From contig NC_011831.1 in the NCBI RefSeq assembly GCF_000021945.1, forward strand, positions 1,088,001 to 1,152,000: a stretch of DNA of 64,000 bases. Reading direction: 5' to 3'. This document shows, piece after piece, positions 41,234 through 44,378 of the stretch (its first letter is position 1; each line of letters begins with the position of its first letter). The notes under the pieces are model-generated. The model did not search any database. It had not been told where the DNA came from and worked only from the letters and a program-made list of their open reading frames with translations. The DNA comes from Chloroflexus aggregans DSM 9485 (GTDB taxonomy: Bacteria > Chloroflexota > Chloroflexia > Chloroflexales > Chloroflexaceae). The position numbers were made by a program, and so were the translations under genes.

Positions 41234-41275
41234 TAGCACTCAGCGTTCATACGGGCAAAGGCATGGCATGGTTGT

Positions 41276-41311
41276 GGTTGAGACGTCGTTATCGAACGTC
41301 TCAACCTTTTT
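41276..41311 (+). terminator. Rho-independent terminator after the polyprenyl synthetase gene
   Basis: GGTTGAGACGT pairs with ACGTCTCAACC, followed by TTTTT. The remaining gap to 41543 is AT-rich and contains only the promoter of the next gene. Confidence 0.85.
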
Positions 41312-41470
41312 GTTAATGTGGCGCAGGGCTTCGCTACCGCCTGCCCACGCTGCTGCGCTCAATAGGTTGCTGAACCGGACGATCATCGCTTCTAAAGGAA
41401 TTGGCATAAAAAAGAGATATTTTTACATTTTTAAGCCTATATATGTATATGAAATCAGTAATAAAATGAT

Positions 41471-41499
41471 TTGCTAATTTTCCAACTATCGAATATAAT
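41471..41499 (+). promoter_or_regulatory. Promoter of the pseudo-response-regulator gene
   Basis: TTGCTA (41471-41476), 17 nt, TATAAT (41494-41499), 45 nt before the ATG. Confidence 0.65.
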
Positions 41500-41543
41500 A
41501 CGGCACAACAATTCTCTTCCCGCACTTATGAAACACTCTCCCT

Positions 41544-42341
41544 ATGTACCCAACAGTTGCCCTTATTCTCGATCACGACACCAAAGAACGTGTCGCTTTG
41601 AGTGAACTCCTTTATCAATGGACATGGCCATTACTGGCCACCGATAGTTTGACTTCACTTGTATACTATCTCCACGATCCGAGGGTACACCTCTGCCTTG
41701 TTAACACCGAGCTTTTAAGCGATCTATGGCAAGATTTACACACACTCTTGACAACTCTTAGCCCACATCAGCGGCTCGTTCTGAGTGGAAACACGCCATT
41801 ACCCTTGCCCGATCTTCCCGACACCGTTGCATCGCGGATGATCTGTTTACCCTATCTTCCGCCCAAAGATGCCTTACAATCCTTTTTAGCTACGCACCAC
41901 TTGCCTCATCAGGTACTGTCACCCTCGGAGCAGAGCAGATGCCTCCGCGAAAGACCGTGTAGCATGTTTGAGATTGATAGTACACGCCAAATTGCCCGCT
42001 TCTGTGATCGAGATGTGTTCTTGAATCAAGAAGAATTGAGCGTGCTACAGTATCTTACCCTTACAAAAGGTCATATTTATACCTATCGAGACCTGATCGA
42101 TCTGTTTTACCTGAATCATTTGCCTGAAGATCACGCCAGAAAACTGGTACGCGGACGTATGTATTACTTACAAACCAAACTCAATCGCGATAGTAAACAT
42201 ACCGCAATCATAACCTGTGTGCGTGGGGTTGGGTATCGTTTGAGTATACCAATGTGTAAAGCTGGATGCCCCGCGAGTGAGCATTCCGATGGGCACACAG
42301 ATGATAGAGGGGACACAGATGAATACGGATGCGACGGATGA
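41544..42341 (+). CDS. Response-regulator-like protein with degenerate receiver and winged-helix DNA-binding domain
   Basis: A 265-residue protein. Residues 1-120 look like a receiver fold (VALILDHDTKERVALSELLY), but the phosphoacceptor position reads CLVNTELL, with Asn for Asp, and the conserved Lys-Pro is LPYLPP. Phosphorylation is therefore unlikely. Residues 145-236 form an OmpR/PhoB-type winged helix: EELSVLQYLTLTKGHIYTYR, recognition region HARKLVRGRMYYLQTKL and C-terminal hairpin VRGVGYRLSI. The final 29 residues (from MCKAG) are not part of the fold and are encoded by a GGATG-type repeat that has moved the stop codon downstream. No histidine kinase gene is near. Confidence 0.8.
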   Translation: MYPTVALILDHDTKERVALSELLYQWTWPLLATDSLTSLVYYLHDPRVHLCLVNTELLSDLWQDLHTLLTTLSPHQRLVLSGNTPLPLPDLPDTVASRMICLPYLPPKDALQSFLATHHLPHQVLSPSEQSRCLRERPCSMFEIDSTRQIARFCDRDVFLNQEELSVLQYLTLTKGHIYTYRDLIDLFYLNHLPEDHARKLVRGRMYYLQTKLNRDSKHTAIITCVRGVGYRLSIPMCKAGCPASEHSDGHTDDRGDTDEYGCDG

Positions 42342-42600
42342 ACACGGATCACACCTCCGATCGGTGTTCATCCGTCGCATCCGTGTCCCCTCGCGGAAAG
42401 GGCACACGGATGAATACGGATCAGACGGATGAACACGGATCACGCTCCGATCCGTGCTCATCCGTCGCACCCGTCCCCATCCGTGTCCCCTCCATCCGTA
42501 CCCATCCGTCGCATCCGTCCCCATCCGTGTCCCCTCCATCCGTACCCATCCGTCGCATCCGTCCCCATCCGTGTCCTCTCAAATCCGCGTCCCCTTCCGA
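42297..42600. repeat. GGATG hairpin repeats, left flank of the GxxExxY gene
   Basis: An 82-bp imperfect palindrome (42309-42390) opens with GGGGACAC and closes with GTGTCCCC, with arms made of CGGATGAACACGGATCA. A second, similar palindrome covers about 42400-42490. Two tandem copies of a 44-bp unit rich in CATCCGT follow at 42491-42578. Confidence 0.9.
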
Positions 42601-42604
42601 TCTT

Positions 42605-42994
42605 TCAACTCCGTAACCCCCTCTTCCTATCATTCGTAAAAATCTTGCGCGCGAAAGTCGGTCGGGGACCAAAATTCAGCAGCAATCCTACCTCTATCTC
42701 AGTAGCTTTCAGATAATTGAGTAACTGCGCTTGATGCTCTGGACGCAACGCCTCAACCGCTTTCAGTTCCACAATAACACAATATTCCACCAGCAAATCA
42801 GCCACGTACTCGCCTACCAACACACCATCATACACAACGCGAATTGGCATTTGCTGCTGAACGAACAACCCTCGCTTCCGCAGCTCGTAAGCTAGTGAAT
42901 TCTCATAGACTTTCTCAAGAAAGCCATATCCTAATTGATTGTAAACGGTGTAGAAGGATTTGAGAATAATGTCGGTGATAGTTGCATGTAACAT
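42605..42994 (-). CDS. GxxExxY protein (PDDEXK_3-type nuclease fold)
   Basis: A 129-residue protein. GYGFLEKVYENSLAYELRKR (about 21-40) carries the G-x-x-E-x-x-Y signature. The nuclease-like core follows: YVADLLVEYCVIVELKAVEA (about 64-83) gives the D and E-x-K of a PD-(D/E)XK fold, and EHQAQLLNYLKAT is the usual next helix. The family is widespread and usually multicopy; its role is not established. GGATG-rich hairpins flank the gene on both sides, in the space between two convergent core genes. The last residues (NDRKRGLRS) run toward the left repeats. The arrangement suggests a gene that travels with the repeats. Confidence 0.88.
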   Translation of the reverse strand: MLHATITDIILKSFYTVYNQLGYGFLEKVYENSLAYELRKRGLFVQQQMPIRVVYDGVLVGEYVADLLVEYCVIVELKAVEALRPEHQAQLLNYLKATEIEVGLLLNFGPRPTFARKIFTNDRKRGLRS

Positions 42995-43012
42995 GTGTTT
43001 GCTCGCTTTTGT

Positions 43013-43028
43013 TATAGTACACTATAGT
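43013..43028 (-). promoter_or_regulatory. Inverted repeat upstream of the GxxExxY gene
   Basis: TATAGT-AC-ACTATA lies directly before the coding sequence and next to the right repeats, and may overlap a -10 box on the minus strand. Confidence 0.4.
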
Positions 43029-43247
43029 AGCACACGGATGATACGGATCAGACGAATGAACACGGATCACGCCTCTGATCTGTGTTTATCCGTCGCATCC
43101 GTCCCATCCGTGTCCCCCCATCCGTATCCCCTCGCAGCAAGCGCACACGGATGATACGGATCAGACGGATGCACACGGATCACACCTCCGAATCTGTGCT
43201 CATCCGTCGCATCCGTCAAATCCGTGTCCCTCCATCCGTATCCCCTC
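43029..43247. repeat. GGATG hairpin repeats, right flank of the GxxExxY gene
   Basis: Two further palindromic units (about 43033-43132 and 43145-43246). They share the 5' arm GGATGATACGGATCAGACG, a centre near GATCACACCTCCGA and a 3' arm CATCCGTCGCATCCGT, in the same orientation as the left copies. They end exactly at the stop codon of the PAS-STAS gene. Confidence 0.9.
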
Positions 43248-44378
43248 CTACCCCTGACTCCGCAACGCATAGCGTATCCCATCCCGTAAGTCAGCCCGCG
43301 TCACAATCGCACTCAAATCAACCCCCAACGCAACGAGCGTTTGCGCGACATCAGGCCGAATGCCGGTGAGCACTAACCGTGCCCCCAACAAGCGGATCGA
43401 AACCGCACACTGCAATATCGCGTGTGCCACCTGCGTATCGATCACAGGAACACCCGTCACATCGAGCACAACCACCCGTGCTCGCCGCTGTTGAACCGTT
43501 CGCAACAGCACCTCAATCAAACTCGCCACCCGCGTACTGTCAAATGCCCCGATCATCGGCGCCAACAACACGTGCTCCGCCACTTCAAGCAACGGCGTCG
43601 AGAGTTCGGCCAACAGCGCCGCCTGTGCCGCAATCACCTCTTCCCGAATCGTCAACTGCCGACGCAACTCTTCGGCCTGTTTGATGTCGGTAATATCGAT
43701 CCGCAAACCGACAGCCCCACCGTCCGCAGTCCGCCGCTCGACGATCCTGATCCAACGTCCATCGGCAAAGTGCTGCTCAATCGGCGCCAACTCGGCATGC
43801 AACCGCAACCGCTCGGCCACCCACTCGTCAACTCGCCCAATTGCCTCGGCGTACTGGCCGCGCTCAGCACCCAACCTGATAAATTCCGCAAAAGGTCGCC
43901 CCGGCACAATCAGATCGGCACTAATAGCGTATAACTCCCGGTAGCGCCGGTTGCACATAACGATCCGATCTTCAGCATCAAGTAACAGAAAGCCTTCCTC
44001 TAAACTATCCAACGCCCCCAGTATCGTTTCAAGTCGCCGCTCTGCCGCCCGCTGTCCATCGAGCAACGCCGTCACATCTACAAGCTGCGCGACCAATGCC
44101 GATCCACTGCGACGAATCAATACCTGAACATACTTTGATCGATCAGAGCGCAACGGCGCTCCCAACTGTAATAGCGGATCATCAGGCGTAAGTAATGCAA
44201 TCCATTCACGGGCTGCTGCCATATCCGCCGCCTCCCACGCCACTACCTGCGCACATGCATCAACCAGATCAACTGGCGGTTCGGTGACACTACTCCATTC
44301 CAACCATCGCCGGTTGCATTGCACCGAACCATCATCGGGAGCATAGGCCGTCGGTAGTGGCAAATCATCAAGCAACAT
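43248..44378 (-). CDS. PAS-STAS protein, RsbR-like regulator
   Basis: A 376-residue soluble protein. A variable N-terminal sensor region (about 1-115) is followed by a PAS domain (about 118-235, LDSLEEGFLLLDAEDRIVMC and DGRWIRIVERR ... LRIDITDIKQAEE), a short coiled coil, and a STAS domain (about 262-372, TPLLEVAEHVLLAPMIGAFD and VVVLDVTGVPVIDT). This RsbR/RsbS-like form has no kinase domain; the family acts in stressosomes or partner-switching control of sigma factors. The phosphorylatable position in VIDTQVAHA is Thr. No RsbT/RsbW-like kinase is in the window. The TAG stop abuts the GGATG repeats. Confidence 0.85.
   Translation of the reverse strand: MLLDDLPLPTAYAPDDGSVQCNRRWLEWSSVTEPPVDLVDACAQVVAWEAADMAAAREWIALLTPDDPLLQLGAPLRSDRSKYVQVLIRRSGSALVAQLVDVTALLDGQRAAERRLETILGALDSLEEGFLLLDAEDRIVMCNRRYRELYAISADLIVPGRPFAEFIRLGAERGQYAEAIGRVDEWVAERLRLHAELAPIEQHFADGRWIRIVERRTADGGAVGLRIDITDIKQAEELRRQLTIREEVIAAQAALLAELSTPLLEVAEHVLLAPMIGAFDSTRVASLIEVLLRTVQQRRARVVVLDVTGVPVIDTQVAHAILQCAVSIRLLGARLVLTGIRPDVAQTLVALGVDLSAIVTRADLRDGIRYALRSQG

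Follow-up and report, generated by a model that had tools for sequence, protein, structure and literature searches.

GxxExxY genes between hairpin repeats: a probable REPIN/RAYT-like family of small mobile elements with a nuclease-fold enzyme

In the chromosome of Chloroflexus aggregans DSM 9485 a small gene of the GxxExxY family lies between two pairs of large palindromic hairpins, and the locus raises the question whether gene and hairpins form one unit or merely share a spacer. The window analysed here, a stretch of 64,000 nucleotides (nt), covers positions 1088001-1152000 of the single 4,684,931-base contig. The original prediction saw gene and hairpins as a unit analogous to RAYT/REP pairs, in which the protein may process or spread the hairpins. 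We consider it probable that GxxExxY genes encode the enzyme of a REPIN/RAYT-like family of tiny mobile hairpin elements, and that this enzyme is an unrelated PD-(D/E)XK protein. GxxExxY genes are bracketed by inverted repeats, the repeat words co-vary with the protein, two word classes are linked in abundance to the matching gene class, gene-bearing, gene-less and element-free forms occur at one site, and the nuclease residues are conserved; from these observations we infer that the hairpins are moved by the enzyme. The window block may have moved as a cassette.

Bracketing of GxxExxY genes by inverted repeats

Of 82 Chloroflexales genomes, 50 have a match to PF13366, the Pfam family of the gene. 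The paired word of the window itself occurs at only 4 of 31 GxxExxY loci in related genomes, and from this word alone the pairing would seem rare. We rejected that reading, because the flanks of other GxxExxY genes repeat other words, such as CACAGAGACACAGAG, CACGAAGGACACGAAG, CACTGAGGCACTGAGG, CGCAGATTACGCAGATT and more among the 19 loci shown. A score for single hairpins gave a weak contrast (25 of 201 flanks at 17 or above) and, because the gene sits between the arms in many loci, was replaced by a motif-free cross-flank score, which compares the 250-nt flanks on either side of the gene and takes their best ungapped inverted match.

The cross-flank score was applied to a named set, the best 80 of 564 GxxExxY loci in GTDB genomes, i.e., those nearest to the window protein. 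At a score of at least 14 we find 51 of these 80 loci, compared with 10 of 583 other open reading frames (ORFs) of the same loci (6 of 282 for short ORFs), where gene ends are taken from the profile and a flank may therefore take in a few codons of the gene. When positions were shifted within the same loci, 52 of 77 loci reached this score against 11 of 2019 shifted positions, three loci with a flank shorter than 30 nt being dropped. The Chloroflexales loci give 65 of 102 for GxxExxY genes and 9 of 154 for other ORFs. The expectation that repeats flank GxxExxY genes more often than other genes is thus borne out for inverted repeats.

The pairing of gene and repeat is general across many phyla. 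With groups assigned by hand, the score is reached by 17 of 23 loci in Bacteroidota, 7 of 8 in Chloroflexota, 6 of 8 in Planctomycetes, 5 of 8 in other Proteobacteria, 2 of 6 in Deltaproteobacteria, 1 of 3 in Ignavibacteria and 2 of 4 in unnamed bacteria, by both loci each in Acidobacteria, Nitrospirae and Verrucomicrobia (2/2), and by the single locus (1/1) each in Patescibacteria, NC10, Zixibacteria, Spirochaetes, Clostridiales and Methanosarcinales. It is reached by none in Armatimonadota (0/1), Calditrichota (0/1), Cloacimonadota (0/2) and Kiritimatiellaeota (0/1).

Repeat words and the protein

Each repeat is built of words of about 8-10 nt in tandem, and the words vary from one GxxExxY gene to another. 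The word groups were picked after reading the flanks of the same loci, so that the classes are post hoc; a class was called at no fewer than 5 matches and 1.5 times the runner-up. Among 189 protein domains (exact duplicates and domains of fewer than 85 model positions left out) 147 could be classed, as GAT (78), AAG (32), GAG (25), GAAT (6), AGGAT (3) and CTGAG (3), and 42 stayed unclassed. AAATTCC, a repeat of some Flavobacterium spacers, was tried as a further class and rejected: none of the 189 GxxExxY genes has AAATTCC on both strands of its 300-nt flanks.

On the protein tree of these 189 rows the word class changes 24 times, compared with 62.6 times when labels are shuffled, and none of 200 shuffles is as low; the tree has 106 columns only, and near-copies help the clustering. 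Pairs of Chloroflexales proteins, of which 72 of 91 were classed and 19 unclassed, share their word class as follows, by protein identity:

Below 35%: same genome 1 of 4 pairs, different genomes 65 of 266
35-55%: same genome 3 of 36, different genomes 412 of 1868
55-65%: same genome 3 of 4, different genomes 88 of 225
65-80%: same genome 1 of 1, different genomes 83 of 127
80% and above: no same-genome pairs, different genomes 23 of 25

Distant paralogues in one genome therefore mostly use different words, and the words are no host property. An insertion hot spot leads to the same conclusion: elements of different class, AAG at L052, GAG at L057 and GAT at L059 and L077, lie in a spacer whose upstream and downstream genes are similar by eye.

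These patterns bear on the view that the repeats are ordinary chromosomal features, such as terminators or nucleoid sites at gene 3' ends, where GxxExxY genes merely land. Many copies do lie at or near gene 3' ends, neighbour orientation at ten C. aggregans loci being convergent in four cases, co-directional in four and divergent in two, and Flavobacterium spacers free of the element often carry another inverted repeat. Against this, the words differ among the GxxExxY genes of one genome and track the protein, and the bracket is missing at the other ORFs of the same loci. We regard this view, already disfavoured, as very improbable.

Repeats far from the genes

Repeats of the same kind are also dispersed away from GxxExxY genes. 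The pattern ACRGATNNACRCRGAT has matches in 29 of the 82 genomes, with 2 matches in total for the reversed control, and ACAGAGN{1,3}CACAGAG in 40 of them, its own control being noisier. For a comparison of abundance with gene class, covering the GAT and GAG classes, repeats up to 700 nt from GxxExxY genes were removed. At least three distant GAT words are found in 8 of 18 genomes with a GAT-class gene and in 9 of 64 without (rank test, p 6.5e-4), and at least three distant GAG words in 12 of 19 genomes with a GAG-class gene and in 15 of 63 without (p 9.8e-4), both p-values being too small for 82 genomes that are related and not independent, which is a point against our reading. The crossed tests of each word class against the other gene class give p 0.5 and 0.63. 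As an illustration, G008, which has a GAG gene, holds 0 GAT and 184 GAG words, and the window genome with its GAT gene 25 GAT and 0 GAG.

The original prediction had named repeats equally common far from any GxxExxY gene as a finding that would speak against the unit. Distant repeats do exist, but the two tested classes track the matching gene class, with exceptions that are weighed below.

Different forms at one Flavobacterium site

A single spacer of Flavobacterium, upstream of a small conserved gene that we take to be SUI1/YciH-like, holds the element in several forms, partly assigned by eye; of 81 genomes 77 had a match, and the best 30 of these were used. Ten of the 30 bear the gene (L272-L275, L279-L281, L286, L287 and L294, of which L272 and L287 are broken), two have a gene-less hairpin (L289, L291), two a remnant (L282, L288), two are unclassed (L300, L301), and 14 have no such element (L276-L278, L283-L285, L290, L292, L293, L295-L299). 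The gene-less forms look like gene-bearing ones whose two flanks have closed on each other around a short loop, and L279 apparently has two complete gene-less hairpins beside its gene. By eye, repeats of no fewer than three types have occupied this spacer. Gene-bearing, gene-less and element-free forms are thus found at this site; the proposed comparison with empty sites at the window locus yields only a larger absence of 2 kb.

Such forms could also be read as the work of a homing-type passenger, a nuclease gene that colonises existing hairpins and copies only itself into their loops, while the hairpins spread by replication slippage or another transposase. The Flavobacterium gene indeed sits at the position of the hairpin loop, the window genome holds more gene-less hairpins than genes, and one Chloroflexus genome with hairpins (G006) has no PF13366 match. 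A mere passenger, however, does not account for the abundance of the two tested word classes, which tracks the presence of the same gene class, nor for the word types common to gene-bearing and gene-less forms, and the hairpin pattern is missing from all 16 Y1-transposase loci of the C. aggregans genome. We consider the passenger explanation unlikely.

The window locus and its neighbours

The locus in the window comprises the following features:

41544-42341, plus strand: left ORF, a Trans_reg_C regulator gene, whose last codons extend into the repeats
42320-42392: hairpin 1, on the downstream side of the gene; arms 42325-42350 and 42359-42384, 26 nt, 96% complementary; folding z -8.9
42399-42491: hairpin 2; arms 42399-42441 and 42449-42491, 43 nt, 81% complementary; z -7.8
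42494-42581: two single-arm repeats in 44-nt units (direct repeat family D1), between hairpin 2 and the 3' end of the gene
42605-42994, minus strand: GxxExxY gene, 129 amino acids; TIGR04256 140.5 bits (cut-off 35), PF13366 142.5 bits (cut-off 22)
43030-43121: hairpin 3, on the upstream side of the gene; arms 43032-43069 and 43076-43113, 38 nt, 82% complementary; z -6.1
43143-43235: hairpin 4; z -5.7; last position of the repeat block 43247
43248-44378, minus strand: right gene, its stop codon directly after the repeat block

The four palindromes, two per side of the gene, are placed as originally described, and the block does lie between the 3' ends of two convergent genes. All four hairpins beat their shuffled versions as folded single-stranded DNA (0 of 200 shuffles as good in each case), whereas two control stretches near them fold at a z of about +0.3. 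Words of about 10 nt around ACGGAT, repeated in tandem, make up the arms. At up to 3 mismatches, the arm word CGGATGNACACGGATCA has 8 matches in the window compared with 0.88 expected, and CATCCGTCGCATCCGT has 14 compared with 1.31; none of 100 shuffles reaches either count. Single-arm repeats like the pair at 42494-42581 occur at the same place in L148. The gene matches TIGR04256 alone in NCBIfam and PF13366 alone in Pfam, both far above their cut-offs, and its assignment to the GxxExxY family is confirmed.

Of 7 other Chloroflexus genomes, 5 lack a 2-kb block (41234-43247) in which the GxxExxY gene, its hairpins and the Trans_reg_C gene lie; in these 5 the end of a polyprenyl synthetase gene lies no more than about 100 nt from a PAS/STAS gene.

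The enzyme

The motif residues of the window protein are G22, E27, Y30, D66, E76, K78, Q90 and Y94. E27, D66 and E76 are conserved in all 189 relatives, K78 in 188, Q90 in 187 and Y94 in 185, a pattern that we read as a D-ExK-QxxxY motif. The AlphaFold2 model (predicted local distance difference test 92.5, predicted template-modelling score 0.85) has as its top solved fold in Foldseek SSO0001 (E 6.6e-5, probability 1.00, template-modelling score 0.55), followed by LHK-Exo, lambda exonuclease and Hjc among further matches and by an R2 retrotransposon entry at rank 23 (E 0.02). SSO0001 belongs to the Cas4 proteins, and Cas4 is described as a 5'-3' DNA exonuclease (PMC7513108, PMC3466216). On the strength of the modelled fold, GxxExxY is a predicted Cas4/lambda-exonuclease-like PD-(D/E)XK nuclease.

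With the window protein as query, none of 50,697 phage records and no PHROGs family matched, and 8 of 72,556 plasmid records did; given this near absence, its close relatives appear chromosomal. A GxxExxY protein is tabulated for an algal virus in PMC12085832.

A Cas4-like nuclease may also suggest a role in defence or addiction, in which the enzyme would act on DNA that is foreign or being replicated, and the hairpins would serve it as substrate, brake or regulatory sites and not be its mobile offspring. The predicted fold speaks for this, as do a weak PADLOC match (PDC-S02, E 8e-4) and a GxxExxY-domain gene that PMC8934634 reports next to a CRISPR-type reverse transcriptase, at a place annotated as cas4 by a different tool. 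Many hairpins far from the gene would not be expected of such a system, however, nor would gene-less forms at orthologous sites and lone insertions into ordinary gene spacers, and we hold a defence function to be improbable.

Apart from these questions, stop-to-stop frames in L046, L048 and L077 open with read-through of the repeats (NHKDTKDTK, NHRDTEAQR and DRTRIGRIERISTDR); judged by these translations, the annotated N-termini of the GxxExxY family may partly be repeat.

A possible mechanism and its weak points

In the mechanism that we propose, the element would consist of a single gene of about 125 codons with inverted repeats of tandem words of about 8-10 nt on its two sides, and without the gene the two repeats would close into hairpins like those of the window. 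The protein would recognise its own word class in the hairpin, probably extruded on single-stranded DNA during replication, and the nuclease would nick, cut or trim the hairpin in the manner of Cas4/RecB-type nucleases. Repair or replication could then copy hairpins, and sometimes the gene too, into new and mostly extragenic sites, often near gene 3' ends; copies that lose the gene would stay as hairpins, and local tandem amplification would yield arrays, among them the one of 14 copies at 4.357 Mb.

Several observations weigh against GxxExxY genes as enzyme genes of mobile hairpins. More than a third of the loci stay below the bracketing score (29 of 80 in the named set, 37 of 102 in Chloroflexales). 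The word classes are clustered on the protein tree, yet they form no single clades (10 changes for GAT, 16 for AAG, 11 for GAG), and the few same-genome pairs above 55% identity mostly share their class (4 of 5), which protein kinship and a host effect both predict. Of the 14 element-free Flavobacterium spacers, 11 (L276-L278, L285, L292, L293, L295-L299) have an inverted AAATTCC repeat of their own, and they are therefore free of the GxxExxY element rather than empty. The template-modelling scores of the Foldseek matches are only moderate, about 0.55, and the PDB searched by sequence holds no solved relative (best E 0.28). No movement event was seen in the compared genomes. The outer ends were read by eye, no close filled/empty pair was found, and neither a target-site duplication nor exact ends were established; among the 7 other Chloroflexus genomes the window locus offers no clean empty site of the cassette alone, because the missing 2-kb stretch also takes in the left regulator gene.

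The same holds for three genomes with many repeats and no gene found. Chloroflexus G006, a single contig without a PF13366 match, has 30 GAT and 93 GAG words; its enzyme was lost, or its hairpins spread by other means. G068 has 89 GAT and 24 GAG words, and G065 27 GAT and 2 GAG. In G065, contig C74 (L349) breaks in a hairpin block at the place of the gene in a 99%-identical relative, so that gene absence in fragmented assemblies is weak evidence; hairpin repeats of this kind probably cause assembly breaks and false gene absence.

Relation to known systems

REPIN-RAYT systems are described, in PMC2817692 and PMC3116915, as a gene flanked by inverted palindromes, with co-variation of enzyme and palindrome, copy number linked to the cognate enzyme, and extragenic doublets and arrays. 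GxxExxY loci resemble them in all four respects: the enzyme gene lies between inverted palindromes, statistically and not at every locus; enzyme and repeat co-vary, on the tree and in the pair test; cognate palindromes are abundant with the enzyme for two word classes; and extragenic hairpins occur in doublets and arrays. The REPIN-RAYT enzyme is an HUH/Y1 transposase, whereas GxxExxY is a PD-(D/E)XK nuclease for which no HUH/Y1 match was found in NCBIfam or Pfam. A further difference lies in the GxxExxY arms, which are tandem words of about 8-10 nt with similar wording across phyla and at one archaeal locus. REPIN-RAYT palindromes are described as carrying a GTAG/CGTC tag at their end (PMC3733652). 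A RAYT as the enzyme of the window hairpins was rejected for want of the hairpin pattern at the Y1 loci; for this reason, and because the GxxExxY enzyme is no HUH Y1 transposase, we see the elements as REPIN-RAYT-like in working and not as members.

With Cas4, RecB and lambda exonuclease the family shares the predicted fold, SSO0001 being the top match, and the D, ExK and QxxxY motifs common to nucleases of this type. It differs from them by its length of about 125 amino acids and its flanking repeats. The one cysteine of the window protein allows no iron-sulphur cluster like that of Cas4, which is held by four cysteines (PMC4176176).

Rpn proteins likewise have a PD-(D/E)XK fold. These YhgA-like nucleases, named after recombination, formerly known as transposase_31 and tied to RecA-independent transfer, belong to another Pfam family (PF04754), and flanking hairpins go unmentioned in the available part of PMC5350276. 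Miniature inverted-repeat transposable elements are similar in that gene-less derivatives share the ends of the gene-bearing element; unlike these and insertion sequences, the GxxExxY element has no known transposase, and its ends are word repeats. Palindromic and direct-repeat families are known among the Geobacter multicopy sequences, and no link to a nuclease was found in the parts of the two reports that were available (PMC2700814, PMC2996986). In the open-access literature, as far as its texts were available and with subscription papers and preprints outside, we found no link between the GxxExxY family and repeats, and no mention of the name PDDEXK_3 or of the repeat words; the passages on GxxExxY in the two papers that name it do not concern repeats.

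The enzyme sets the GxxExxY elements apart from REPIN-RAYT, while the architecture converges on it. If our reading is true, a large annotated protein family without settled function gains one, widespread intergenic hairpin repeats gain an enzyme, and enzymes unrelated to each other have given rise to the REPIN strategy on no fewer than two occasions. The tie of a Cas4-like nuclease to mobile hairpins would also say something about the origin of such nucleases, and the natural series of proteins and words makes DNA recognition directly testable by swapping words or proteins. A wider interpretation, to which we give even chances, is that GxxExxY forms a cross-domain class of tiny self-contained mobile systems and an independent invention of the REPIN strategy, with one Cas4-like nuclease of about 125 amino acids per element, each protein clade reading its own word of some 8-10 nt and making in trans the hairpin arrays that fill the spacers of many bacterial genomes.

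Repeats elsewhere in the C. aggregans genome

The genome has two PF13366 genes. The second (1301461-1301811) has 300-nt flanks that score as word class AAG, and its 3.4-kb locus contains no match to the window's paired-word pattern. BLAST with one window hairpin yields 43 genome matches at E up to 0.01. Twelve stretches around such matches were examined, one of which is the second GxxExxY gene; nine have word clusters, which thus occur at no fewer than 9 loci outside the window, and no PF13366 gene lies at any of these. With ORFs called by a simple script that permitted 90 nt of overlap, none of 11 word clusters (two of them in the window) lies wholly within an ORF of at least 90 codons, and several reach into the end of an ORF, at most for 83 nt. 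Rfam gave 16 low-scoring matches, all to microRNA families below their gathering scores, which we judge to be chance hairpin matches.

The largest array comprises 14 hairpins that resemble each other and recur about every 134 nt (L034:4901-6785, genome positions 4356900-4358785) between two convergent genes, and the ORF whose 3' end adjoins it is taken for trmD. Among other Chloroflexus genomes, G007 and G010 each have a single short hairpin in this spacer and G009 has a degenerate one; in G006, G008 and G011 no hairpin was seen, and in G012 the pattern search places two facing words. This difference between 14 copies and a single hairpin or none in relatives indicates that arrays can grow from single hairpins.

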